A stretch of 64,000 bases of DNA from Linnemannia hyalina (lineage: Eukaryota > Mortierellomycota > Mortierellomycetes > Mortierellales > Mortierellaceae). Below are positions 7,084 to 33,274 of this stretch, piece by piece. The notes beneath the pieces are model-generated. The model ran no database searches. It was not told the origin of the DNA and worked only from the letters and a program-made list of their open reading frames with translations. The translations under genes and the position numbers were made by a program. The stretch is from contig JAHRHY010000001.1 of assembly GCA_019671135.1 (NCBI GenBank), positions 2,604,001-2,668,000 on the forward strand. Direction: 5' to 3'. How positions within the stretch are numbered: the stretch's first letter is position 1; every line of letters starts with the position of its first letter.

Positions 7084-9991
7084 GAATTCAGTCGTTGCGC
7101 AGGCTGTGGTGTAAAGGTGAACGAGAGTGTGCGTGTGTAAGCGCCGCAGACTCTAATGTTGTCCTGACAAAAACAATAGAAGTGGTTGGCGACGACGTGC
7201 ACAGCGCGACAGGGAGAGTAATAATGTATTTGGTGGCGGACGAGTTCAAAAAGGACTGCCTCTGTGTTGTAGTGGTGGGTGGTTGTTCGTTACTGTTAAG
7301 GAGAGTGAAGATTCGCTTGGTGATCAGGTTGTTGTTGTTGGTTTGTCTGGAGGCTGATCGTTTGTTGCTGGCGTGCCTGGTGGTTGTAGTTGGGGAGCTT
7401 AGTGCGCGCGTGGATGGTGAAAGAAGAAGAATAAAAAGTGTGCTGTTGATTCTTGTGTGGTTGTTGAAAAGAAAAGGGTTTGAAAACAAACAACGGCTTC
7501 GAATTGGACAATGTTTAAATGCACAACATGTAATTGCACACTAACTAATTGCACGATATTTAATTGCCCGAATTGCTACGATATACGAACATGTAGTGCC
7601 CTTGACCTTCTACATGCTCCCCCCTCCTTCGCTTCTCCTACCATTGCCAACAAGGTGATTTTTGATTCATGCGCACGCCGCTCGTTGCTATTATTGTCTT
7701 TTTTCATGCGGGAATGCAAAACTGCTGTACGCTTGTCAAGTACAGCACTACACACGACCTATTATGCATATATTGAATTCACGCTTCACGTACATTTAAC
7801 AGACAGTAAGCATGAAGAACAACGCATCGTTCACCGTTAGTTTCCCTTTTCATGTGTTCGCTTTACTTCCACTGTTAATACAATTGCATTCGTAAATGTA
7901 TATGGTCCTACTTGTCAATGTTTCCATCTGATAGAAATACTTGTCCGTCCTGCCATGCCCTGCCGCCGGAGGAGCAGGGGGCAAGGAAGGGAGACGGTAC
8001 GGCGCGGGCCTTTGAATAGTCTGGCATGGGCACAAACAAAAAATAGAAGGAGATCAGTCACCAAAAAAGCAGAAAATGCAGGAAAGGCAGTGAGAATTCA
8101 GGTGGGACAAAGAAGACAAGAGGGCGCCTTTCCTTGTAGAATCGATGGGTTGTCGATCATGCAGCGTGTAAGTTCATGTGTGCGTTTTGTGTGTGCGTAG
8201 GTTGTCATTGTGTTCATTGCGTTGTGCGAGCCCCTGATTTCTTGGAATAGTTCCGGACCAAGCGGGGTCCTCATGACAACTACTGACGGCCGTGGATGAG
8301 AGAGAGGGAAGCAACAACGATAAGTGAGAAAAGGAGGCAACAATGAAATGAGAAGGAACGAGAAGGAGAGTACCGGTGACGCATTAATAGTAACAGTTGT
8401 TGAACAGACAGGTAACGACAATAGTTAGTTGCAAGAAATCCAAGGAGGGAGGCGAGTCGCAAGCATCAAACGGAATGCAAGCAAAGTTGTCATGCCAACT
8501 TGCCAAGAAAAAAAAAGGGCGGTTACCCAGTATCAAAACTACTATACTTTACTTGCTGTTAAGCGTTTGATCCTGCTTCCTGTCTAGGAATTGGGAGTTA
8601 GGAGTTAGGACAGATGATGGAGCGTGGTGTGTCTGTGAGTATGGATGTTAGGTATTAGGCAACCATTGTCCACGAGTGAATCAGGAGTAAGAGGCCATTC
8701 AAGGCCGTATTAATATCAACGAGAGAGAAAAGGGGAGAGAGAGGGAGACATGGAAACTGAGGGCTGAAGAGAGCAAGAACGAGGACTGTTATCTATCTGT
8801 TCACCTGTAGGTGTTCTAGTTCCGCGCGTGTGTGCTGTTGATGCACGAGGAGTGCGTTGCTTTATGATTCTTTTTTGTTCCTCCTTCCTCCTTCCTAACT
8901 TCCCTCCCTCTTGCCCATCCCAGCCAGTCCTTTGTTTTGCAGCGAAACCCCCCCTTCCTTTCATATCTCGACCCTCTCCCCACTCAACCCGTCCATCCAT
9001 CCCAGCCAGCTTGCCGGTCATTCCAGCCCCTCCATCATCCCAGCCACCGCATCCCAGTAAGCAAGAGCACACTTTTATTTTGATCCTTTTCACGCATCCA
9101 CCATTTTTCCTTCTTTCTTCTTTCTTCTCCCTTCTTCCACTTTCCTGTTTCCACTTTCATCTCTAAGAGCACTCTTTCTTCGCCCATTGCCCTACGTCCC
9201 CTTCCTCTCGCCAACTGTGCAACTATATCTCCCTCAGCTCATCCAGCAGTAACCAACACTATACCCATTCAATCAACTTCTCATTTACTTCACCTCCATT
9301 CTCAGAGCATTTTCCTTTGGACCTTTAATCCTATCTTCTACCTTGTCATCCATATCCCAATCCACAGGCAGATCAGGCACACCTCCCCCACCTCAACCTT
9401 CTTCTTCATCTTCTTAATTCCTCTTCCTCTTCCTCTCACTTCCTCTTCCTCCCAAGGTCAGATAGCCAAATCGACTCCTCCAGTCTCCTTCGCTTTTCTT
9501 CTCTCCGAAAGGAACATCGAGGACATCCTCCAACTCTCTTTTATTTTTATTTTCTGTGACTTGAACCATCCAGTCCGACTCCCCACTCCTCCCCTGCATA
9601 TTCCTGCGACATTTCCTTTTCTTCCCTCTCGCTCTTCTCTTACCCCCTCTCATTCTCGCCGTCGAGTCGTGGCAGTCATCAGAACTGGGAACAACCCCCC
9701 TACCCTTCTTCTTGATCCATCCAAGGTAAGAAAGGGGAGCGGGAACTCTGAACTATGATTGTGTATCTGTGTATCATCTCCCTCCCTCTCTCTCTTTTTG
9801 AATGCGTCAAGGCCAATTCTTTCCCATCCAAGCAAACAACATTCATGCCATGGCCCTCTCTCCCTCCCCGTCCCCTTCTTTCCCTTGTTCCCTCGCTACT
9901 CAGCCTGCCATGACAACAAACAACAGAGAGCCTGGAGTATCGGATTTCGTCTGTTCCTCTGTTCCATATGACTCTTTCTCCCATACCCGCT

Positions 9992-10050
9992 CCTTCCCTT
10001 CCCTTCCCTTCCCTTCCCTTCCCTTCCCTTCCCTTCCCTTTCCTTTCCTT
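9992..10050. repeat. (TTCCC)n microsatellite
   Basis: About ten tandem TTCCC pentamers grade into TTTCC. This is the core of the pyrimidine tract upstream of the 12458 gene. Confidence 0.9.
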
Positions 10051-11612
10051 TTCCTCTTCCCTCCCTTCCTTTTCTCTCCTTCCTTTTCTTTTTTTCCCCT
10101 TTTCCTCTCTTCTTTTTTTTCCTTTCCTTTACTTTTCGTTCCTTTTTTCTCTTCGCTGCTTTTCTTCTTTCCTGATTTTTCTTACACTCGATTTCTCCCC
10201 CTTGGCCCTCGTGGCAGAAAGACGGATTTGATACACATACAACAACGAACGTGGCGCTATGGATGTTCATTGGGCTTTGTTCTACTCCATTCTCAACACC
10301 AATTGTTTTCCTATTCTCTCCCTCTCCTGCTCTTTGTGAACAAAAGTCTCCAGGAACCAAAAGGGATCTGTCGAATAAAGTGATAACATCACAGCAAACA
10401 ACATACAACCTACGAGACAGTGTGGGTGCGTGTTGTCTTCGTAACCTGTTGGAACGACCTATAACGGTGGATACGGCGGAATACAAAACAAACAGACACG
10501 TTTGCTTCATCACCTCGCACCCCTTGCTGTCGCTGGCGTTGCTATGGATCCCTTGGTATTGAATGAAGATTTGCCTCGTCCATCCTTCCTTCCCTTCTTC
10601 CTGTTTGTTGTTTTGGCCAATGCTAATTGCCTTTGCAATTCCTGTTGTACCATTGACGATATCTTACAGCTCTATATTCCCTCGTATTTCTCGTTACTTC
10701 TCCCCTTCTATACTTTTACCTTTTGCCCTTTTGCTCTCTTTTCAGGATCTTGCTTTATAAGCCTGCTCCATGATCCATGATCCATGATCCATCCCTCGCT
10801 TGAGCCCAACACTTTCCTTCCCTTTCATTGCTATTCATTGTTGGTTGATTCTCCTCCGAGATCACAATGGCCCTTTTGTGTGTCCCAATAATGCATATCT
10901 CTCTGTTTTTTGTCAATGGCTTGTGTTCGTGTGCTACAAAGGACGATCCTTTTTTTCTCTCTCTCTCTGTCTCCCTTTGTCGCTTTCGATTGTTCCCATA
11001 CCCATATGCAATTGTTTATTGTGTTTTGTGTGCAGATGCTCCCGAGCTCCTATAATAACATACGAAAAGCAACATGCTGACACGCTTTTCTTTCTCACTC
11101 TTCTTTCTACTCTCTTTTTTGTTTTGCTTTGATCCTTTCCCTTCATCCTTATTCTACTCTCCCTCCCCGCCCTTGGTTTTATTTATGTCTTATTTCCTTT
11201 CCTTTCACTCTCCCTCCAATTCATACACGTTTCTACACCCCTCCGCTCTTACTCTTCTCTCTCTCCTTCTCCTTCCCTCTTTCACTGTCACTTTGTGTCC
11301 CATTCATTTATAAATTAGTCTCTAGCTTTATTGCTGTTTCGCTCGCCCGGGCCACATTCACATCTCCCTCAAGAAGCACAAGCCAACGCAATTTAAAACA
11401 GCACATATCATCGTACCGCACCGACAACAATACAAAACGGAGACACGAGGAGGCAAAACAGCACACAGCATATATCACGAGGACAAACAAATAGCATCCC
11501 CAAAACCCAGCATCCCATTGTATATATTCCACAGAAGCATAGCCAGCATTTTTTTCATCATTCGTATTCAACTGCCGACGACAATCCCATTTTCAACAAG
11601 TAGCATCCGTTG

Positions 11613-11646
<34 letters not shown>

Positions 11647-11660
11647 CGACGACGACAACA
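11613..11660. repeat. (CAA)n/(CGA)n microsatellite
   Basis: A run of about a dozen CAA triplets is followed by CGA triplets, non-coding, about 0.8 kb upstream of the 12458 start codon. Confidence 0.9.
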
Positions 11661-12457
11661 ACGAAAAGAAAAGCATCCTCCTCCTTTTCTTCCTCCCCTC
11701 CTTCTCATTCTTAAGCAAGGCAGCATTTGCATTCAACAATCAACAAATAACACTCACGGAAGCAACAACTCTTTATCCAACGAGCACAGGACAAACAAAG
11801 GTAATCATCCCGAACCCTTCATCAGTCACCATCGCTCCCATCACTACGCTGATCAACAACAAAGAAACGCCTCTTTGATCGTCCAATGAGAGATTCTCCT
11901 TCAACAACTACCTTAATCTCGAGTATTTTTCCAAAATATCCACCATTCACACCACCATATCATCGTACGATCGCTATCGCCCATCATCGCCACCCAACCG
12001 TACATTCTAAAGGTCGCATATTCGCCAAATCCCATCTCTTCCACTCTGCCGTTTCCATCTTCTTCCTTATTCCCTCTTCCTTCGCCTGCTCGTTGTGCCC
12101 TTTTGCTGCTCTTTTATTTTTCTTTCTTTCTTGACCCCTTTCTCTTTTTCCCATCCTTCCTCTTACTCTCTTTACTTCATTCTCTCTCTCTCTCTTCGCT
12201 CTCTTTACTCTCCACTCTCTCCTCACTCTCAACATATACACATCCCTTCTCTCACCTCTCTTTCTCACTTTCCTTTGTCTCCATCTCCCCAGTTTTGCCC
12301 TTCTGTGCCGTCTTGCCTCACCTCCCCCTATTCTTCCTAATATCCCGCTATAAACAACGCACTCAGCCACCAACTGCATACTGACTCCCAACACGCTCTT
12401 TACCCTTCTCCCTCCACATCTACCCCAACCAACCATACTACCCACACACACTTACTC

Positions 12458-15400
12458 ATGCCAGGAAGACCGATGTCGTCCCTGATCAAAATATCCTTCC
12501 AGGAGGATGGCCGCAAACAGGAACGCATCTTTGAGTTTGCCCCTCACGTTACATGTCGACTCGCCGTCGAGCAGGTAAGCTTGGAAGAAACAGAAACAAA
12601 GTTCGAAGTTTGAATGAACGAATGAAAGTGAATGAATGCACGAGAGATGCAATGACGGCAGAAGAAGGCTTGATTCCGAGTTACCCTAATCTCCCCTTGC
12701 TCTTCTTTAGCCACACTAACTGCCTTTCTGTCTGACCACACGAAATTGTTTGGCTTTTTGAACTTTTGTATCTCGCGTTTAGGTTTCTGCCGCGTTCGCA
12801 GTCCCGGAGGACTGGACAATGGCCTTGTACGTTGTCGCTCCTTGTTGTTTTCTTTGTTATTAGCGCTGGTCTTGTGTGGGTATACATTGTGTTTACTTTT
12901 TGCACTTCATCACTAATACTATCTATCTGTACTCATAATGGAACTTGCAGGTACAGCAAGAAGCACGCGGGGTGGATCCACGACAGCATCCTCCTCATGA
13001 ACATCGTCTTCAAGGGCCATGTAAGTACTATCTCCTCTTCACACATAAAAATAACCAAAGAAAAGCGGAGGAGATCGCATTTATTGATCCCGGTTACTAC
13101 TTGGGACCACTGCACAACTCCGCATATGAAACGCGTTTCCTCCTAATCATTGACGACGACTGTTTCTTTTTTTTTTCTTTTGTTTGCTGACCTCCCTCTT
13201 TTTTCCCATTTGACGGTTTTTAGAAATCACTAGAAATGCGCACAAAGACCCCGGCGTACTTTGAGGCAAAATATTCCGCCACCCTCGAACCTTCCAAGGT
13301 ATGTTTACAAGCAGGATATGGCCCAATTAAGAGTGCAATCTTACTCTCTGCCCCATCTGTCTGCAATGCAAGGGCCTTTGTTTATTTGTTCGCATTATGT
13401 CCGTGTAACATGAATTCGATTCTTACCTCTGCCCTTCCTTCTCCCTTCTCTATCCTCTGTGATTTGCCGTGGGAAACAAAAAACAACAAATGTAGACTTC
13501 CCTCCGGGACTCGACCATTCTGCGTGGACCCACCTCGCCCATTGATCCGCACCGCCTCTTTAACTTTTTCCGCACATCCGATGACCAGTTCGTCTCCCGG
13601 TTCCAGAAGGGCTGCATCTACCTCTCAATCGTAATCCTCAACAGCGACAACAAGATCCTCCTCGGCCCCAGTGGCGTGCCCCCCACGGTCATGGTTTCCA
13701 CTGTCGGCGGCTTGGCCAACTACTATAGCTTTGACACCGACTCTGCCGATTTCGCATGGATGGTCAAGACTACCCTCGACTGGGCCTCGGATACTCCATC
13801 GATCTCCTACCATGACCCATGTGCTACCCCTGAGCCCCGTACCGCGACACAATTTGTCGGCTCTGCTGCCAGCTCCATCATCTCTCCACCTCTTTCGAGG
13901 ATATCCTTCTCTGGCACCAATCGGGGCAGCAGCAAGAACCTCAAGAACATTTCCGGCGTTGGGTCTAGATCGAATGTGAGCTCGATATCTGTCGACCGGT
14001 CCTCTGTCATCTCGGACGTTAGTAACCAACAACCTGTTTATGATTACATCGACCGCCGGAAGGACTGCGGGAGAGAGAACAGGCTGCGCCAGGACTATGT
14101 CGAAGCTGTCGATCAGTTGCAACGGAAGTTGGGGATCCCACCCATTGACATGCTGTTCGACAAGGTCATCGAATTGACTCAAGTTGGAGCCAAGAGTGTC
14201 ATGGCTATCCAGTATATCAAGGACGAGAACAAGAGCCATATCTCTCCTGAGCTTATGCATGCTGGTTCGTTCCGGTGGCGTAGCATCGACTCTATCTCGG
14301 GATCTGTCTATACTAGGAACGAGGAAATTTGGTCCCAACTCACCAGCTATCATGACAACATCCGAGGTAACTACCTTTTGCTCACCTCTTTACTTTAACG
14401 ACCGTATTGCAGAGAAGGTTATTTTGAACACCAAACTGACAAAGTCTGTTTTTGTAACATACATGCAATAGTGACGAGGCCGACGTCGGGATTGTACATT
14501 GGTCTGTACTACACGGAGAGCACAATGTCAGGCTTGCAGATCCTCGTCCCAAAGCAGCGCAGGACATTCATCCCGATCGTCAAGCTCAGAGACAATACTA
14601 CCATCGCACCAGAAGAATGGGACTGGCTTAAATCCACGACATCCATGGACCTCAACCAGCTCGCCAAGGCCTGCGCTGTCTCCAAGGACGACCCCATGCA
14701 CCACCTCAAGGTCGAGTTTGCACACTCAACAGCCAAGTTGTCGCGCCTGACACAGCTCAAGTGGAACCCGTCGGACATGTATACCCAGGATACCATGCGG
14801 GTTGTCTACCAGAACATTGGCAATGTTGGCAACAACAACTCTTTGCCACCAACCCCTGAGGAGATGCTGACGTCAGAAGATCCTCGCCCCTCTATTATTG
14901 AGCCTCCTTCGACACCCTCTGCGGTGAGGAAGAGTGTTGCAGCTATGGATGTGGATCCAATTTGGAACTGTTCGCCTTTGGAGAAGGAGGATACGAATAC
15001 TATCCGGGTGATCATGTTTATCAAGCCTACACGACATGCGACTCAGCCTCAGGAGCACTTCAACAAGGATCTGTTTGAGATGAGCTCGTTCCCGATCTTT
15101 GATACTCTTCACCACTCTGTCTACAACACGGCAACGTATCTCCCCCTACGCAAGTCGATGTTGAACTTGACTAACGAAATTGTCGAGTTGGAACAGGAGA
15201 TTGAGCAAGAACTTGAGATGGAGTTGGAGATGGAGATGGGATCTGGAGGACGGACCAGAAGACGACGAGCGAGCAGTGCTGCCAAGCTGGATGAGAGTGA
15301 TCTGCTTGGGTCATTGCTGATTGACGAGCTGGGCATCAAGGGCGAGTCGCCTCACCCGCTTCATGCACACCAGCATCCTCGGCATCGTTCAAGCTTTATT

Positions 15401-22277: not shown

Positions 22278-22816
22278 GGCGAAATGTAAAAGTTGCAAAA
22301 GAAAAAGAAAGGTGAGGAAGAAATGTCAAGTAGACAAGAACGGACGGTGGGAAAAAGAGCATGCGCTTTAGCGAGCCGAAGCCGATGCATCACGTGATGT
22401 AATTGCCACTTCGCACACAATCATACTTCGTCGGTCGTTGGTGTAGAACTTGAAGGCTCTACTGCATGAGTCTTCAAGACACATCAATTGCCCAATGTAT
22501 CTCGCGCAGTAAACGGATGCATGAAAAAGGGAATAATACAACATCACGTCAGACCAGCGAGAGCATTCGAGCAAAGCGCATTATTCAGACTGGAAAGTGG
22601 TTGGGTATGGCAGTGCAAACAAGGATGTTTCTGGGTGACCTGGCCATCACACGCGTAAACAGATGCGACGGATGAAACAATATAATTATTGTCTATTTCA
22701 TCCAAAATTTAGGATGTTTTGGTTAATCTGAGGTTTACTGATAGCAGACTCCGTAGCAAATCATAAATGGGAAACAAGCAGATGGGAACTTACATAAATC
22801 TAGCTAGGCTAGCTCA
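22278..22816. other. Spacer between CLYBL-like 5' end and Fanzor 3' end
   Basis: 539 bp that hold the CLYBL-like promoter (nearest 22277) and the region downstream of the Fanzor stop codon. No coding sequence is convincing. A 34-bp inverted repeat lies at 22670-22703. In TnpB and Fanzor systems the guide RNA is encoded at and beyond the 3' end of the nuclease gene, so 22670-22816 on the minus strand is the place to look for one. Confidence 0.5.
22670..22703. repeat. Inverted repeat (hairpin) 113 bp downstream of the Fanzor stop
   Basis: GGATGAAACAATA (22670-22682) is the reverse complement of 22687-22703 apart from a 4-nt bulge (TCTA), with a 4-nt loop. As RNA from the minus strand it gives 13 base pairs. 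The left arm includes ATGAAACAAT, which recurs at 32529-32538 beyond the recombinase gene. Confidence 0.7.
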
Positions 22817-25800
22817 TCAGCAGCGTCGCGGGAAGCCATTGTTGTCAATGGGTCCGTTGTCGAAGTGCTCGATGTTTTGTTGTGTTCCAGTAGCGAGAGA
22901 CTGGGGTTCTGAAGGGGTGGCGCCCTCTGGACGCGTTGATCTCCTGTAGGGAGGAAGTGGCTGTCTGTTGTCGCTCATGATTGTCGTGAATCCCGCAAGT
23001 GCAATGTTGACACATGCATTGCTGTCCCTGCCTCGACGTGCATAACCGGCGCGGACACTCTCACAGTTGGGGTTTTCGCACTGAACCGCACCGTTGATTG
23101 TGACCAGCTTCTCGACTCCGTTGACAAGTCTCAGTTCCTTGACGAGGCGTAGAATCGCAAAACAAAACGGACAGACTTTGCTTGTCATGTTTTCATCGGT
23201 CATCAGTACAGGGACGGAGAGGGCATGTTGCTCAACGACCTTTTTTCCGCCGTACTTTAGATGACCGCCAATGCGACTCCCGGTTCCGATTCCTGCCGTC
23301 CCGACGAACATGATAGGGATGATGGGCAACGCATCTCTGGGGCATTCCTGTGGATAGGTGAGTGCCCTTCCAACGCGGATTGGGAGGTGGTGTCTACCAC
23401 ACTTGCAACACCCATCGATAGAGTCGACTGTGTTGACTGATGCTGGTTGGGTCTGTCCTGTTCCTATCAAGAAAACAAAAATAAAAGTACGTTTTAGTTA
23501 TTTGAATGCCCATTGGAGTTAACAACAAGGAATCAATGCACTCCGATTCTTAAATCCATAAACTTACCTCTGGAAAAATCCTGCATTTTCCGTCGTTCGT
23601 CGGCTGCGATCGTCTGCCATGCTCGCTGCAGTTGAAGATCCTTGTGGTGGGTTTGTTTCACTAAGCTTTTGCTGCCCTCGAAGTTGCGAAGGGGTTGTGT
23701 AGCTGATCGTCGGGTCACCTGTGCAGAGTCAACTTCACTGATAGTCTGCGCCTTCAAAACGGAGTTTTCTCCTATCTCCTTGTGAAGCTCCGAAATCCTC
23801 TGATTTTCCGGCTGTCGAAGCAAACGCTCCCTTGTTCGAGTCGCCCTACCTACTCCACCGACTTCTTTGACCTGTTTTGCGGTGATGCGGTTGGACTTGG
23901 CAAAACGCATGTCCTCGATCGTTGCCTTCCGGGATAAAGAGCCAGTTATCGTTATGGCGTTCCGAGTCCGTTCTGGAAGAGATGACGCTTTCGATTCTGA
24001 ATGCAGAGAGGGCTGGGTGTCCGTGCCATCAATGTCCATGTCCACAGCATCAGCGTGAGAGGTGGGCGGCTCTGAAGCCCCGTCGTCGTTGCCGGTGTGG
24101 TGAGTATCGGGATGACCTATAACGTCAAATGAAACGCCGTAGGAAATTATTGCATGAAGACACGATCTTGATATGATAGAGCGACAGTAGTAAAGCAGAA
24201 AAGAAAACATACCATGGAGAATATAGTATCGGTTTGATAAAGATTCCAGAGTTGACCACAAGGAGGGGACAGTCTCAGACATAGTCACCAATCCTCTGTC
24301 AGTGCCTGGTACAGGTAGTTGTCGGTCCTTGTCTTCAATTTCTAACAGTAGCTGCTTGATGGAGGTTGTCTGAACAAAGTCTTGCATCCCAGGATGTTGA
24401 ACAGTTGGGACAGACTCTGTGACAGTCGTGATGGGCAGGGGAGAAGGGTCTTCTGATAGTGCTGTTGGGGGGGCGGTCGCCTTGGACAACCTGTTGTAAT
24501 AGTAGCGTTGCTGCTTCTTTTCCCGGATCTCAGCCTCGAGAGGAACGATCTTCTTCTTCAGGTTGTTGACGACTTTTCGTGCCTCCTGTAGGTTCTGGTA
24601 GATTCCCTTTTTGTGTCTCTGGTCGTGTCCTTCATAGTGACGAAGGGTGCGGTCCTTTTCTCTCCTGACCGTCGTGGCTGCCTTGAGGCCCTTCTTGAGG
24701 GGTTGTAGCTCTGTGACCAAACGATCCTGAACAATCTTGATCTCCTCCGACGCTTTGGCTGCAGATTGAGGGGTGTGCCCGGTTTCCAGTAGTTCCGACG
24801 TCCAGTTGATTACACCTGATGGCTTAACATGCTTCTTCTTCTTGTCTTCGTACGCACTGTTGGTGAAGTGGCGGTTTGGTCCCGTTATCGCCCGTCGTCC
24901 CGTGATGCGTACTGTGTAAAAGTCGACGTACGTCATTCTATCATTTTACAAACAATGCACGGTAAACTGTTATTCAATTGACTCATGATGGTCATAGATA
25001 TGAATGAGGAGAGGTCATATTCAAGACCTTATGTATGCATACCTTTGTGCGAACTCAAGTCCATGTTTCGTGCAGGCATCGTCGATGATGGCCATATTGA
25101 AAAGTCCACCGAAAACATATTTGCGATGATCGGTAGACAGTCTCGCGACGGTCGACGTGGTGATTACTCGACCACTTGGGCCCTTGATATCGAAGCGTCC
25201 TGGTGCTCGCCCGCCAAATATGTCATACACCCCTGACGCGTCCAACGGCACAGCATGCCGATTCCCAACAGCAGGAACTGGGCAAATCCTACGGGTGAAA
25301 TCCTTGTATCCCGCCGATCTCAAGATTGCATTTGCAATATACACAAACGGCCCCAAAGTCAAGACGCTCTTTGGATAGGAAGTTGACTGGGGTCCTGAGT
25401 GGGCCTTCTTAGGGGTAAACGGTCTCAGTAATGTCACTAGCCGCAAGACGGCCAAAATCTCCTCCGTGCTGTACATCTCAGGCTCGTAGAGCTTCGCCTT
25501 GACTGTCTCTTCGGTGATGGGTATGTTCGAGTCTGGCAATTCCAGCAACCTGATAGCTACTGCTTCTAGACCTCGGAGCTTCTTTGACGTCGGCTCCTTT
25601 GGTCCTACGGTGGAGAAAAAGGAAGTGAGAGATATTAGTCAACAGTTAATACCACAAACTCAGCAAGGAGCAGCGTCCGATATTAGTTATTGGTACCTGT
25701 TGAGGAGCGTGCCACAGATTCAGACGGACCACTGCTCTGAGCCTCTGCATTAATAGAGCGACCGGCATCTGACTGCTCCTCCATGACCCCCATCTCGCAA

Positions 25801-28351
25801 TCTTGATCTGCTGTGTGAGTGCAAGGCATTAAAACATCATCGCTGCTCTTGCTCGAGCCCGAAACAACCAACTCAGTATCCATATCGTCGTCTGAGTCGT
25901 CTGAGCCGTCAAACTCCGAGTCCGTCTCGTAGTCGTCGCTTTGGGTGAGTCCACGTGACTTGTTCTGCTCCTTGACTCCTGGCCGCCGCTCTTGATGGAT
26001 GTCAATGAGCCCGAAAATCTTGTTGATGCGCTCCTCGTCTCGACTAGTATCAAATGCGTGATCAAGTTGATTGAATAGGTCCTGGTTTCGCCTTTTCCAG
26101 TTCCTCAGGGACTCTCGACGCTTTTGGCTTGCCGATGCCGACGCCTCCTTCATCTCCTCGGCCTTCTTGATAGCACGCTTCCGCTTTTGGATGCGGTGTT
26201 TCTCCTCGCTCTGGGGTCGTAGATTGAGTCGGAGAACATTGTGCACCACGTACCGTCTCAACCTCTCGTAAATGTCTCCAGACCATATCATCTTGATGTT
26301 CGTAGCGTACTCTCGCATGAGTGTGGCCGTCAAGCCCCCCAGGCTTTCCTTCGATGAGTCCTCTGACTGGTATCCGACCTCGACATTGGCATCAGCAGCA
26401 GCATAGGCATCATCCACAGCGCCGGAACCAGAGGCTTGAGACAAGCTTGGAATGATCTTGAAGGGGTTGGATGAGGGTGAGTCAGGATGCCTTGAATCAT
26501 CCCAGGCTTGTGGTACCAGCTTCCCGCTATAGATGCTTTCAAGCACTGTATCCCACAAGGGGTGGGTGGTAGTCTTGGGGGTCTTCCTCGCACGTCTCAA
26601 TTCTGGAATCCGAACTCCAAGGTACTGCAAATAATCCTGGGATAGCAAGGTTGCCGGATCCTTCACTCGGGGCTTCAACTCCGTAGCATCGGATACAATC
26701 TGTTGCCACTCCGGAGTAATGACTCCCGCTTCCACGATCGGGTTCTCCTTGAAGTAGTCGTCCCTGATATCAAAGGATGGCGGGAATATGTCAGCTAGGT
26801 TAAGCTGTATGCTTCCTTGGATGCCACCGCGACAGATCTAGAAAGTAAACACGGTCGTGATAACATATAATATTAGTTAACTTGAAATAAATATGTCCTT
26901 GCGCGACCACAACCAAGACAGAGAATGTTGAAAACATACCCATAGTGTTGTCTTGTACGCTCCCATGGCAACGGATTCCATAAAGTCAGACACCTCACCC
27001 TGTACGTCGTTTAGCCTCTTGGTGATGTAATCTTGATCCTTCGTGGGGAGATTCGTCCTGAGCAGCTTCGCAAGAGGTAGGGTAATAGTGCGAATGCTGT
27101 TGTCATCCTGGGCGTCGATGTCCGATGGGGTTGGGGCGATAGTTGTTGAGTTTGCTGAAGCAACGGTAGGATCAGATATGTGGTCCTGTTCCTCGATCCA
27201 TGCCATGTCAAAGTGTCTTGATAAGGCCGCCTTATATGTCGCTAGAGCTCGTCCAGTAACGGTCTGAGGTTCTCCAATAGGGTGGGTAATCATCATCGAT
27301 GCGTGATGGTTGGTAAAGTCCTCTTCGTCGTTGATGCCGCAGTGTTGGCGAACGCGTCGAGCAGTTTCATTCATGACTCCCCGAGGCGTTCTTACACGTT
27401 TCTCTTCCGCTTGCTTTGCATCAATATGTGCCTTCTCCAATGCTTCCCTCGGATCTGCCTCCTTCTTTGCACGCTTCTTCGCCGTGCGGCACTGATCGGC
27501 CGCCTCCTTCTTGACTCGGGCCTCACTAAATGATTTTTTTTAAAAATATCAAAGACAATCAATAAAGAAGTAAAAATCAAACAAAAAAAGTCTAAAAATC
27601 ATTCACATAGTAGACATCAAAACACACCATTCCTCCTTGTAGATGGTCTCTAGTGCGACCCTGTCGATCTCGCATCCTTCTCTCTGCTGGCGCGGTCGTT
27701 TGGCGGTTCGGAATGTCGCGGCAGGTCCTGGTGGAAGTGGTAGAGACGGGGGTGTTGGTGGCCGTAGATCAATGAAAAGATCGTCCTGTTCCGTACGAGT
27801 TGGTCCGAGTACATTGTAGTCCGAGTATCCCAGAATTGACGATGCATCATGAAGAATACCGACAACTCCTTTTGGATAGGGATGGGTGATGACAATGGGG
27901 CGGGCGGCGGTGTCAAACAGGAATATGTTGATGTGCAATAGTGCTGAGATGTAGCGAAGAAGAAAGCTTGAAGGTGGAATGGGATATGTGATGGTGTTTT
28001 CCTGGTTCCTCCAAAGCACCAAAAATCCGGTCTCGTTCCTCTCACCACGCTCCGGTGTCCATGAGCCATCCAAGATCGCAATGATAAGCCGTGCAAGAGA
28101 GGGTGTTGTGCTGAAATTTAATGCCAAGTGGTGCTTGTTGATAAAGCGAAAGGCGACGGACGCTTGACCCTGTGCTATGGGTTGGGCCTCTGAAGCAATA
28201 AAAGCTCCTCCTAGTCGCTGATATAGATCCCCATTGAATCCCTCGTGCAGGATTTGTTCTGCAGCCTCGTTAACGAACTTCCAGTCCGGCATAAAGGAGT
28301 GCATCTGCTTCGTAGTAGTTAAAACAGAACGGAACAATATGTTGTGAGTAC

Positions 28352-28394
<43 letters not shown>

Positions 28395-28454
28395 AACGCA
28401 AGGTGATGAACGTTCATGAACTGTTTTACGTACTCCAGGGCTGTTGTCGCTCAT
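22817..28454 (-). CDS. Fanzor-like (eukaryotic TnpB homologue) RNA-guided nuclease candidate, 1635 aa
   Basis: Model: complement(22817-23463, 23568-24116, 24213-24937, 25043-25604, 25697-26837, 26940-27525, 27628-28304, 28434-28454), 1635 aa; eight exons, all GT-AG, all phases consistent. The C-terminus carries the Fanzor/TnpB signature: VLMTDENMTSKVCPFC with the RuvC-II-type Glu (about 1511) and the TSxxC motif, a zinc ribbon of Cys 1518, 1521, 1549, 1554, then RRGRDSNACVNIALAG with the terminal RuvC-III Asp (about 1567). Upstream, FVGTAGIGTGSRIGGHLKYGG matches the basic loop before RuvC-II in this family. GLFNMAIID...HGLEFAQRMTYVDFYTVRITG (split by an intron near 25043) and a Lys/Arg-rich coiled coil come before it. 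The RuvC-I Asp is not pinned down. Residues 1-1000 are a large N-terminal region of unknown fold. Family members are RNA-guided DNA endonucleases; activity here is inference. Confidence 0.8.
28356..28390. repeat. (CT)n microsatellite in Fanzor intron 1
   Basis: About 16 CT units lie inside the first intron of the Fanzor gene, between the 7-codon first exon and exon 2. Read through, it gives an artificial Arg-Glu repeat. Confidence 0.9.
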
Positions 28455-28730
28455 GACGGATGTCGTCGTCTTTGCAAAGAGAGTGTGCTGGTGGTGGTGG
28501 TGTTATCGTTCGTGTGTCACGTTGGGAAAGTGAACAGAAAAGGTTGAGTGGGAAGAGGAATGTGTGGAATTGTGGGGGTTATCCACATAAGGTTGGTTTA
28601 TAAAAGTCACGTGACACATATGGGTTTATCCCCGTCGGCATAGGCACGGTTTTAAACCGATAGGCAGCCTTGCATAATTATTTTTTTTCTGGCGGAATCA
28701 TCCACATGGGACGCATGCATGTCACTCCAT

Positions 28731-28856
28731 TCTTCCCTCTTTCTCCACTCCACATCGCCACATTAGCCTCATTCAGACAAGCCCACACCCCAATCTTCCC
28801 TCTTTCTCACTTCACATCGCCACATTAGCCTGATTCAAACAAGCCCACACCCCAAT
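28731..28856. repeat. 63-bp tandem duplication
   Basis: Two copies, 28731-28793 and 28794-28856, begin TCTTCCCTCTTTCTC and share CACATCGCCACATTAGCC and ACAAGCCCACACCCCAAT, with only a few mismatches. They lie midway between the two divergent start codons, so they may be binding sites for a shared regulator or for the recombinase itself. Confidence 0.9.
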
Positions 28857-28872
28857 ACACATTACACACACA

Positions 28873-28890
28873 CCCCCCCCCCCCCCCCCA
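28873..28890. repeat. (C)18 homopolymer
   Basis: Eighteen C in a row follow a short (CA) tract in the divergent spacer. The length may be affected by sequencing error. Confidence 0.85.
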
Positions 28891-29091
28891 ATACCCGACT
28901 AATTAATGACACGGGTAAGCTAAAGAGGTATTTGCACAATTGGGGCGATATGTCCTGTACCTGATTGGCATCCACCATACCACCATACTTACTATTTCGT
29001 TCTATTGTTTTATTGTTTCGCGTTAAACAAGTCGTGCAGCTTTTCTGTTAAAGGCAAAGCCATAGCACGAAACAAACGGCAGCAGACGAGC

Positions 29092-32000
29092 ATGCAAGGC
29101 AGCCAGCCGGCAAGAGCAAAATCTAAGCTGGAAACCTACCGCGAACGCAATAGGGTTGAACAACAAAATCACCTCTGTAATAAGCAGAAGGAGCTAGCAA
29201 GCTCCCATCTTGTGGCCGAAGCTCGCAAGTCCTTGCAAGCCCAGTCGACGCGGGACCAGTATGATCGGTACCAGGAGAAGTTCATGGTATGGCAAATTGT
29301 AAAATGTACCCCCATTTTTGCACAAGCATAGATAAACTATGGCCCCCGACTCGACGCACTAACTAACTCAATCACTCCATCCCTTGGTATAGGAATGGTG
29401 CGACGTTTCTGGATATAAGGATGATTACAACGTCACGAAAGGCAAAGTAACCCGTTACTTTGCTTGCCTGACCTGCGAGACGGAAGATCCTCAAAACGGT
29501 ATGAATATGAAAAATGGAACTAATGTGAGCGGTCATACGATACGACGACGACGACGAAACGCTATGGTGGTGTTTGAAATTATAAGAACTAACGAAAATA
29601 TAAATGCAATAGGTATCATACGGATCAAACCGTCGCCAAGAGACAGGAAGGGCAACAACAGCAAGGACAAGTCCGGCGAACGGCGGGCAAATATGGATGA
29701 CCCGTGTTCTGATGATGATGTCGATGGAGGCGATGTGGAGGACAAAAGCGATGACAACTGCGAGGGGGACGCCAGTCGAGACGTTGACATCCACAACAGC
29801 AACAATGAGAACAGTGAAGAGCGGTGGTACTCGACGGCAACCATTCTCTTGCACCTCGCTGCCATTGGCGACCTCTATAAGCATCAGTGTGAAGACAGGA
29901 ACAATTTAGCGATGGATTATGGCACAGTTCCGGCCCCGAAGACGTACATTCAACCTCTGATCGACGTTTACCGCGTGAGGATGTCCGCCAGGAAGAGGTC
30001 GACAGATACCGACTTTGGCTCTATCGACTTCACCCAGAACCCAACTTCGATTGTTCGGCAGCTAATGAAGCGATTTTGGATGCGCAATGTGGAGGGCGCA
30101 GCCAGCTTGAGAAAGCGCCGCTTGAAAGGGTTACGCGACCGTGCGGATGTAAGTCTTTGCTTTTTTATGATGTTCCGCAGCGAGGTCACACGCCAGATCC
30201 GACTCCCGGATCTTTTCGCCCACGACGTCGAGCCCAACCGCAACAAAAATACGAACGATGCCAGCTGCAGAGAAGGCCAATTCGTGCTTGGAGTTGTGCT
30301 GATGATGAGGCAAGGCAAGACGAACAAGGACGGCAAGATTCAGTATGGAGTTGCAGTTCGGAACAAAGAAGTAGATGTGTGTCCAGTTGGCGCGCTAGCC
30401 TTTTATTTGCTTGAGCTTTGGTCGGTAAGTGGCGTGCATGTGGTAAATGTCGGCGGCCGACGCGTGGTGTCACTCATATTTCAACACTCATTTAATAATG
30501 CGTTCTTCCCCCCCCCCCTCTTCCTTTTTTTTGCTGTACTAAGAGCAAAAACAAAAGGGCGCCTGATCTCACCAACCCTAAATGGACCGACTACCATCTG
30601 TTAGCTGGAAACAAACCAATGGATGTACCGATGACTTACAACTCCCAGTTCCAGGCGCAGGTGGAGGCTCTTCATGAGAGCGGGATATTGGACAAGGGCA
30701 CAGTGACTCACCTTGGGCGCAAGCACGGCTCCAGATTCGCGCATATGTGTGGATCTACGGTAGAGGCGATCGCTAAGCACGGGAACTGGGCATCGAACCG
30801 TCTCTCAACTCACTATCTCGAGGGTGTAGAGCCTTCAGTGGCCCTTCGATTGGCTGGATTTGACCGCGACCGTCTAGAGCGCTTTTGGCTGGCTCGGAAC
30901 ACTGTGATCCCCAGCATTGAGCTCCAAAGGCAGTTGTTCCCTTTCATCGAGGATGCTTGCTCCGACACGTTCTGGAGGCTCACGATTGACAACATTATGC
31001 GTGACTGCGACGTTTTCCACGGACGCGAGGAGTTGCGTGAGAAGCTGCGACGGGGCGAGTGCAAGGAAGTCAAGCAGGTGTACACGGACAAGGATATGCA
31101 GACCGTTCTGTCGAATGAGGTCATTTCAAGAAAGCGCCATCTTAGCCTTCTCGCCCACCTGCGAAAGGTTATCCTTCAGGATGCAGCTGTCATCCTGTTC
31201 GGGGGTGGTGCTGCCGCCGCGCACCCTGTTTTCGATCACCCTGTCTTCAAAACACCTGCGTTTCAAGATTTCCAGCAAACCCTACTCGAGAGCATGAGAA
31301 ATCCCTCTCCTCTCACGGATTCCCTCGCATCTGCCACACCCATCATCCAACTGGAGTTTGACAGGGTCGGCGCGAGGCTCGGTGTCCAAGATGCTGCAAT
31401 CCGGAGCCTGCAGCAAAGCCAGCAAGCCGGACTTCAGAGTTTGCACGCCGGTATGAATGTTCTAGCAGCTACTTTACAAGCTCAGAATGATAGGACAGCA
31501 TCCGAGCTGAAGGACTTGAAGCGGTGCATTGGCAACAATGACAAACTGGCAGGCAACAAGCGACAATGTTTGAACAAGGATGCCGTTCGATCTCAGTTGA
31601 TGCAAGCTCTCAAGTCAACGGTGGAAGCCGTGGTGGCGATTAGCGAGGACGATGAGGTGAATGTCAGTGACGACGTCAACGGCAGTGCAGCAAGCCAGAG
31701 TACCACTATGGCTACCGCCATCGCTCTTCTTCAGCTTCCAGAGCCGGACGCTGGCCAGCAAGAATCAAGACCTCCGACTTCTTCCACTGCAGTTCTTTCA
31801 AGGGATGCGCACCGCCGCGCAGCTCTGGCCGCTTTCAACCCCAGCGACAATGTCGAGGACAGAATGCGACAAGTAGCCGTCTTAGTCGCCGACGAGAAGA
31901 GGGCGAGAGGAGAGACCCAACACCATATGCCCCTAATGCCCGAGTGCAAGCTGATCCCACGACCGAATACGCTCGACCAACTGTGGCAAGAGTGGTTTTA

Positions 32001-32190
32001 CCACGGCGTCGATGGGTCCCCCTCCATCGCAGAGCTTAATAGGTGGTTCGGATCAGCGTGGCGAGGCAAAGATGCACAGCTCTACAAGTGGAAGAAGGAC
32101 ATTGTACATTCGGTTCTGCGCTCTATCCCAGCTGGCTTGCAGGTTGACAAGTCCGCCGTAAACAATGCACTTGCCTTCGTAAGAGGGTAA
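29092..32190 (+). CDS. Crypton-type tyrosine recombinase with GCR1_C-like DNA-binding domain
   Basis: Model: join(29092-29286, 29393-29498, 29613-30424, 30544-32190), 919 aa, introns GT-AG with CTAAC branch sites. Catalytic residues of a tyrosine recombinase are all present and in order: Arg289 in MMFRSEVTRQ, His427-x-x-Arg430 in VTHLGRKHG, His450/Trp453 in KHGNW, and the nucleophile Tyr462 in LSTHYLEG followed by LRLAGF. The block VDVCPVGALAFYLLELW before exon 4 is typical of Crypton recombinases. The C-terminal 70 residues (LDQLWQEWFYHG...PSIAELNRWFG...W) match the GCR1_C DNA-binding domain common in fungal Cryptons. The N-terminus has a Cys pair (ACLTCE) and an acidic linker. There is no reverse transcriptase, arguing against a DIRS element. 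It would catalyse excision and integration of the element. All catalytic residues are intact. Confidence 0.87.
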
Positions 32191-33274
32191 ATCGATACTG
32201 TTGGTTCAATTGATAAATACTACAAGGCTCTTCCCAAAGCACCCTCGAGAAAGTACCCAAAGAGAAGAGAATAAACACCATCCTTGGTCTATCACAGTGT
32301 TACATGTCAGCTCGCTCTACATATGGTTAGGAGCAGGGTGAGGGCAAAGCTGAGGGAAGGAGGAGAGAAGAGGATAGTAGAGAGGGGAGTAGAGAGAGTG
32401 ATGATAGAAGGACCTAGGGATAGAGGGAGGGAAGAGCAGAGAGGAATAGAGAGCAGAGAGTGTGATGTAAGCAGGAGGGCAACGCAGTTCTCAATGTGTT
32501 CAGGCACAGGCACGAGAGGAGAGGGCACATGAAACAATCTATTCACACATATGTGACTGGTTTATAACTGTCTATCGTGCTCGGAATAAAAAAATCTATA
32601 AACCATTATAAGCCGCTAATCTGCGTATAATGTAGTGGGGTTGTCGTTCAGTGTCGTGTAGAAAAGGGAACAGATGTATAGAATGTGAAGGGAAGAAAAA
32701 AAGAGATCGAGTGTTGTCTTTCTGAAGAGAGTGTGTTGTGTGTGTGTTGGTTAGGTGCGGGTGAGGCTGGAGAATAGGGTATGCTTTTCGCCAGTATCAA
32801 CTTCGCTTAATTGAATAGGCCTTTTTGGCTCGCACTTTTTATACCAAGAATAACATTGATCATAAATTGATAATTTTGCGTGAAATCCACTATATCATTT
32901 CGTCAAGAAATGCCGGTTTGAACCCGCCCAATTCATTGATAAACCAGTCCCTTCAAGTTCAGACAACCAACTGTAGAGGGTGAGCGCGATGTACCAAGGA
33001 GCTGGCTAAGGCACTTCTCGCACTGTTACACTTGTTTATCCTGCACCAGCAACCCTTCGCCAGATTCTCCTTTGCTTAACATCTTGCTTTTACCTTTTGT
33101 GCGAGTTCATTTCCGCCACCAAAAAATTGCCATGGAAAATAACCTAAATGGGTTTTTTTGGCAGTCACTGTTGTCTCCGTACTAAGCAAAAAAAATGTGC
33201 TTTCGAGTTCGGAAATTTCAAACAACCTAACACACCTTTCATTCCCTTCCGGACAAGAACCGACATCTCCGAAC
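32191..33274. other. Spacer: element right flank and Rsm22 promoter
   Basis: This holds the recombinase 3' region, a purine-rich stretch (32330-32470), the right ATGAAACAAT copy (32529-32538) followed at once by the palindrome CACATATGTG, a GT-rich stretch (32640-32760), and the probable Rsm22 promoter. No gene is visible. Confidence 0.5.

Follow-up and report, generated by a model that had tools for sequence, protein, structure and literature searches.

A Crypton Nested in an Element with a Fanzor-Like Gene in Linnemannia hyalina

Introduction

How does a gene for a Fanzor-like protein come to stand head to head with a gene for a Crypton-type tyrosine recombinase (YR)? The question is raised by a 64,000-nucleotide stretch of the Linnemannia hyalina genome (C1:2604001-2668000; the genome comprises 51.5 Mb in 50 contigs), which we call the window and whose copy of the gene pair we refer to as C1. 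An earlier note, made from the letters of the window, had taken the pair for a Crypton that acquired a Fanzor. We find instead that the Crypton is nested within a carrier element that holds the Fanzor-like gene, as is revealed by two copies of the carrier (C20 and C49b) with an empty site, and that the nested unit occurs with a common junction at eight loci with different flanks. We put the probability at roughly 0.8 that this 10.2-kb unit is a nested composite transposon, a Crypton in a Fanzor carrier, mobilised in trans by a mariner-type transposase.

Results

The Crypton Is Nested in a Carrier Element

The unit contains two head-to-head genes, one encoding the Fanzor-like protein (minus strand, eight exons) and the other a CryptonF-type YR (plus strand, four exons). 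Its parts, in window coordinates, are as follows.

22687..22709, plus strand: left tip of the carrier, TA plus terminal inverted repeat, TATTGTCTATTTCATCCAAAATT
22817..28454, minus strand: Fanzor-like gene, splice model with 8 exons and 1635 aa, GT..AG splice sites, no internal stop; exons 1-4 at 28454-28434, 28304-27628, 27525-26940 and 26837-25697, exons 5-8 at 25604-25043, 24937-24213, 24116-23568 and 23463-22817
28455..28570: carrier stretch upstream of the Fanzor-like gene, present in C20 and C49b, which lack the YR
28571..32632, plus strand: nested CryptonF-type element, 4.06 kb, recurring outside the composite at 11 places
29092..32190, plus strand: YR gene, exons at 29092-29286, 29393-29498, 29613-30424 and 30544-32190
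32629..32632: AATG core, common to the right end of the Crypton and to the empty target, in which GGAATG is followed directly by TAGTG
32633..32871: carrier stretch right of the Crypton, continuous with 28570 in C20 and C49b and present in the 8 composites
32872..32894, minus strand: right tip of the carrier, terminal inverted repeat plus TA, the minus strand reading TATAGTGGATTTCACGCAAAATT

The nesting is evident from the copies in which the Crypton is missing. The empty site, GGAATGTAGTG, runs in both C20 and C49b from the equivalent of position 28570 directly to that of 32629. Over 5.7 kb the Fanzor element in C20 matches the window at 99.35% identity, and C49b, a carrier without a Crypton, is decayed, with a 731-bp insert and frameshifts. 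What the earlier note had proposed to look for as a sign against a single element was therefore encountered: two Fanzor elements belonging to this family have a site from which only the Crypton is absent, and each gene is also found by itself.

The same note's proposal that both genes move as one unit is nonetheless borne out. Searches with the left end, the junction and the right end found eight composites (C1, C2, C7, C12, C16, two on C23 called C23a and C23b, and C49:1901610-1911811), and all eight have all three; C1 and C2 were read whole and the other six at their ends, junction and YR exons, with the Fanzor interior unread. Eight of the 10 close Fanzor elements carry the YR. The eight composites have seven distinct left flanks and seven distinct right flanks. 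One left flank is common to C23a and C16 and one right flank to C7 and C12 (about 180-190 bp compared), the opposite flanks of these copies being different, and in C1, C2, C49 and C23b neither flank matches that of any other compared copy. Because C16 and C7 lie 3-4 kb from contig ends, the flank pattern of these two pairs might reflect jumps in the assembly or ectopic recombination.

The Crypton, for its part, also occurs by itself. A search of the genome with window positions 22600-32600, which missed some copies, returned one further full copy (C2), a Fanzor half (C49) and many matches starting at window position 28575. These last span 28575-32632, which is the 4.06-kb Crypton, at 98.4-99.3% identity (10 non-composite copies read, two of them in pieces). 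A search with the YR protein raised the number of close YR copies to 19, namely the eight composites and 11 others, of which eight were read whole, C20 was read by its ends and exons, C44 is split and C18 is rearranged; all these copy counts are lower bounds. The wider YR family yielded four proteins. Over the YR unit, the C1 and C2 composites differ by 0.15% and composite from solo copies by 0.81-1.09%; the solo units are 0.00-0.10% apart, except for C9b at 0.42-0.52% (nine solos compared, C18 and C20 being left out). In C44 a 10.7-kb stretch divides the Crypton, and the two pieces overlap by 5 bp where they part (window 30539-30543), the kind of trace that a further insertion would produce.

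The border between carrier and Crypton bears on the region between the genes. Their start codons are indeed 637 bp apart, as had been claimed; the idea of a single promoter shared by both did not survive, the carrier/Crypton border at 28570/28571 falling inside the spacer, which therefore consists of two parts, 116 bp from the carrier and 521 bp from the Crypton. Within the upstream region of the Crypton (window 28723-28856) we also observed a 62-bp tandem repeat in 2.1 copies, and the alignment suggests one fewer unit of it in the C2 composite.

The YR has the features of a CryptonF recombinase. Arg289, HLGR at 427-430, Trp453 and Tyr462 are all present where the earlier note placed them, and R289, HLGR 427-430 and Y462, the R-H-R-Y set of CryptonF, recur in 11 of 11 YR copies translated. 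Exon 4 matches two Pfam families, GCR1_C (PF12550; expectation value [E] 1.7e-9), in keeping with the GCR1_C-like tail that the note described, and NDC10_II (E 1.6e-10). The note's view of the YR as intact holds for the catalytic residues and fails for the length. Codon 32188-32190 is TAA in the window, whereas all 11 other copies read at this codon have CAA (six of the eight composites are unread here), and because of this stop the window YR has 919 aa, 28 residues fewer than the 947 aa of all 10 others translated, the family stop lying near 32272-32274. The ends of the Crypton are TATTG on the left and TAATG on the right in nine of nine solo copies inspected, with the AATG core at the nested site; no inverted repeats were seen at these ends by eye, no search with a tool having been made.

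The locus lies between an HpcH/HpaI aldolase gene and Rsm22. Both had been reported as housekeeping neighbours; Rsm22 stands as named, and the aldolase stands as a member of the HpcH/HpaI family, CLYBL being the name that the earlier note gave it. Elsewhere in the window, positions 9000-13000 show a marked GC skew (to -0.44) and pyrimidine-rich simple repeats.

The Carrier and Its Ends

The carrier, of about 6.1 kb (22687-28570 plus 32633-32894), has the Fanzor-like gene as its sole recognised gene. Its tips, at 22687 and 32894, replace the bounds of 22672 and 32538 given earlier; a direct repeat near 22672 and 32530, ATGAAACAAT, was considered as marking the element ends and discarded, for it is absent from the borders of the copies. 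The carrier begins with TA followed by TTGTCTATTTCATCCAAAATT and ends with AATTTTGCGTGAAATCCACTA followed by TA. The two tips form an imperfect inverted repeat that agrees at 18 of 23 positions, a level reached in 0 of 100,000 shuffles, and among the 127,954 23-mers of the window only the right tip attains 18/23 once the left tip itself is set aside. It is because of this inverted-repeat test that we prefer mariner-like ends over a plain Crypton carrier.

Patterns made of the first 22 bases of each tip, with at most three mismatches allowed, were sought throughout the genome. For the left tip there is an exact match in each of the eight composites and a match with one mismatch in C20 and C49b, with four weaker matches besides; the right tip is exact at 10 places (the eight composites, C20 and C14:800773), with one weaker match. 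All eight composites have TA next to the left tip, and all 10 copies have it next to the right tip; in C20 the left tip adjoins a Crypton. At C14:800773 no Fanzor or YR match was found within 7.6 kb of the right tip. At the carrier ends we found no duplication common to the copies that exceeded 2-3 bp.

Two other elements of the genome have tips of a similar kind. An element of about 165 bp, for which the genome gives 25 near-full-length matches, has tips that agree with the carrier tips at 15-17 of 23 positions (a figure that has no shuffle control); of 10 copies fetched, six have one common flank, and all of the five distinct flanks have TA on both sides. A DDE_3 (Tc1/mariner-type) element likewise has a related tip, at 13-14 of 23 positions against the carrier tips (again with no shuffle control). 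The best reading of the carrier, as judged from its sequence, is that of a non-autonomous, mariner-like element.

The Fanzor-Like Protein

The eight-exon gene was correctly described before as intact and as encoding 1635 aa; it has GT..AG splice sites and no internal stop. The frame is intact in C1 and C2, and that of C20 has lost a single base close to the C-terminus. The ratio of nonsynonymous to synonymous change (pN/pS) relative to C1, to which no significance test was applied, is 0.41 for C2 (seven differences), 0.18 for C20 (30 differences) and 0.41 for C49b.

The case for membership among the Fanzors centres on the C-terminus. From residue 1514 the protein has the motif TSKVCPFC..CENPNC..RD, which fits the pattern [TS][TS]-x2-C4 zinc finger-x(5,50)-RD; the pattern appears in 0 of 20,000 shuffles and in 13 of 16 Mortierellaceae Fanzors, and a diverged relative retains much of the motif (VDESMTSNICMFC...CINPSC). 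A comparison by hhalign with those 16 Fanzors aligned the zinc-finger region, with a pairwise E of 0.0038 and a weak probability of 8.7%. The profile PF07282 (Cas12f1-like_TNB) matched neither the window protein nor any of the four family members scanned. The RuvC-I spacing D-X(125,275), as given in PMC3627910, is not seen, in that D930, picked by eye, sits 583 residues before TS; 10 Asp residues do lie within 125-275 residues of TS, none in a RuvC-I-like context by eye. A search of PDB sequences with the window protein or its family returned no TnpB or Fanzor chain, whereas the same search with the 16 ordinary Fanzors returned TnpB-like chains at E 0.002-0.008. An AlphaFold2 model of exon 8 had a confidence score (pLDDT) of 31.6, too low for use, and at the 3' end of the element, which was checked for a guide RNA, there was no Rfam match and the fold z-score was -1.0. 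An OTU-like character of exon 2 is unsupported, Pfam giving no match. The protein is most likely a divergent Fanzor1, to go by these sequence features; we call it Fanzor-like because PF07282 is unmatched, the profile comparison is weak and the RuvC-I spacing is lacking.

Only L. hyalina, L. gamsii and Mortierella sp. GBA39 yielded relatives of the protein (five, at E up to 1, among 7984 length-limited candidates). One diverged relative, at C49:135464-141178, is 23-48% identical by segment, with 48% over the C-terminal part, and has both tips (three mismatches each) with TA at both ends; another, at C1:1637990, is 41-53% identical and has the left tip. No YR match was found near either of them (6.3 and 7.6 kb read, the latter for C1:1637990). 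The genome has in addition 91 matches to PF07282 (TnpB/Fanzor), many of which score identically, as multi-copy sets would. A supposed independent YR-Fanzor pair at C1:4114 kb was rejected: only a Fanzor fragment is visible there by eye, with other reading frames between.

An Apparent Landing Preference of the Crypton

The flanks of the non-composite Cryptons suggest where this element tends to land. The motif [CT]GCNTTTC stands to the right of the Crypton in nine of the 11 copies. Five of these nine flanks recur elsewhere without a Crypton, beginning TATTG at the tip, and belong to the element of about 165 bp (C47a and C44) or to the DDE_3 element (C9a, C13 and C10, compared with C24); the other four landing sites have the motif alone, to which the C47c flank adds a 70% match to the element of about 165 bp. 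C20 provides a tenth case, the Crypton sitting exactly at the left tip of the Fanzor element, and C9b and the nested site fit no tip-landing pattern. These sites are partly non-independent, given that C9a, C13 and C10 have at least 1.7 kb of right flank in common and C47a and C44 have 159 bp; the left flank of C44 lies inside another copy of the element of about 165 bp. The CryptonF has an apparent landing preference for the tips of Tc1/mariner-like elements, and because of this pattern no special partnership has to be invoked when a Crypton lies in or at the edge of a Fanzor element of the mariner-like kind.

Discussion

How the Pair Arose

The pairing of the two genes arose through nesting and not through a common design, and the composite is a real, multi-copy unit. 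Its history most likely ran as follows. The base unit is the non-autonomous element of about 6.1 kb, with Tc1/mariner-like ends and a large, divergent Fanzor-like gene. The 4.06-kb CryptonF-type element entered this carrier once, at the AATG core, which lies 116 bp ahead of the start codon of the Fanzor-like gene. The inverted repeats of the carrier would then be used in trans by a mariner-type transposase, which would move the 10.2-kb composite, with the Crypton hitch-hiking on the moved carrier. The Fanzor-like protein, if we may judge by its family, could be an RNA-guided nuclease and might help the carrier to persist or to copy itself.

Certain observations weigh against this history. In the carrier, which is non-autonomous at best, we recognised no gene for a transposase, and no transposase element with exactly the carrier's tips was found (the surroundings of the tip matches on C14, C48 and C50 are unsearched). 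C49b has no left TA. In all 10 copies the right TA is followed by KYAT (KYATY at window 32895-32899), as it also is at C14:800773, an asymmetry that is unexpected for a mariner that simply inserts at TA. Finally, the Crypton could have been lost from C20 and C49b by excision, which would be indistinguishable from a site that was never filled.

The asymmetry leads to the alternative that survives best, namely that the carrier is itself a non-autonomous element of the YR type (Crypton-like) and that the nested YR moves the composite via the carrier ends. Besides the KYAT in every copy, a short TATT-like direct repeat is present at both carrier ends in some copies; inverted arms around a short core would also suit a YR site, according to PMC3212892; and in C20 the Crypton landed exactly on the tip of a Fanzor element. 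Yet the carrier tips resemble those of TA-flanked mariner-like elements, the diverged YR-less relative on C49 carries TA at each end, and the termini of the Crypton itself do not share the sequence of the carrier ends, all of which leaves this alternative a small but real chance of being right. We consider it doubtful, and would give it a small chance only, that capture of the Crypton freed a stranded Fanzor element and made it self-mobile, with nuclease and YR pairing up in the composite lineage; in this proposal the nested YR would act on the carrier tips, which resemble its favoured landing site.

A true Crypton-Fanzor partnership is very unlikely; in it, the YR would be what moves the unit, and cleavage of the empty site by the Fanzor would drive copying. 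It would account for the high share of close Fanzor elements that carry a YR (eight of 10), for the near identity of the composites at their ends and junction and for the preservation of the Fanzor frame, with the pN/pS of 0.18 and 30 differences relative to C20. But the empty-site copies lack the YR alone, there are 11 non-composite Cryptons, and the two diverged Fanzor relatives share tips with the carrier and show no YR match in the stretches read. Nor do other Fanzors lie near YRs more often than expected: between the 91 PF07282 matches and 28 YR loci there is one pair within 15 kb, with 1.5 expected, and the Fanzor member of that pair is, by eye, a fragment separated from the YR by other reading frames; the test covers other Fanzors, the window's own family lying outside the 91 matches. 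Segmental duplication or an assembly artefact in place of transposition is extremely improbable, for, whatever the flanks common to C16 and C23a and to C7 and C12 and the closeness of C16 and C7 to contig ends may suggest, the remaining flanks differ and C1, C2, C49 and C23b share none.

The value of the locus lies in the natural series that one genome offers, a Crypton alone, a Fanzor element without a Crypton and the two nested together, the borders and the empty site being resolved to within a few bases. The series illustrates one route by which Fanzor genes come to lie beside recombinases of another class, an arrangement readable as a partnership, and it brings to light a Fanzor-like family that escapes the standard profile.

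Comparison with Known Systems

The earlier note knew of no description of a Crypton paired with a Fanzor in this layout; a link between the two is in print. PMC10711439 lists Crypton recombinases among the partners of Fanzor1, and PMC3627910 describes both Fanzor1 in mariner-type elements without a transposase and a repeated unit with Fanzor1 and Crypton recombinase sequence, MCi-2A. At the level of titles and abstracts, with subscription journals mostly outside the scope, we found no description of the present Fanzor-Crypton composite.

Four known systems invite comparison. PUl-4, a Fanzor1-only Tc/mariner element (Bao and Jurka 2013, PMC3627910), is like the carrier in having a Fanzor gene only, mariner-like inverted repeats and TA ends; the window protein, in contrast, has no PF07282 match, and the carrier has imperfect tips and a Crypton nested inside. 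MCi-2A of Mucor circinelloides (PMC3627910) resembles our composite in joining Fanzor1 and Crypton recombinase sequence in one repeated unit, and its sister subfamilies have different 5' regions. Its Crypton gene is partial, its ends are fuzzy and its duplications are of 11-12 bp, whereas here the Crypton is whole and the borders and the empty site are defined.

The fungal CryptonF elements (PMC3212892) share with the nested one an R-H-R-Y YR, GCR1_C, short direct repeats and a lack of inverted repeats; the solo copies of L. hyalina differ in favouring a Tc1/mariner-like tip motif, a preference that the portion of PMC3212892 at hand does not report. In MarCry-1_FO, a Crypton-Mariner fusion of Fusarium oxysporum (Kojima and Jurka 2011, PMC3212892), a CryptonF is likewise joined to a mariner-type element, and the mariner part (16-bp terminal inverted repeats, TA duplications) is credited with transposition. 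That part has a DDE transposase, whereas the window composite has the Fanzor-like gene only, and in the L. hyalina genome, unlike that case, Crypton-free carriers are still present. The composite is a variant of known composite elements, if a clean case, and not a new kind of system.

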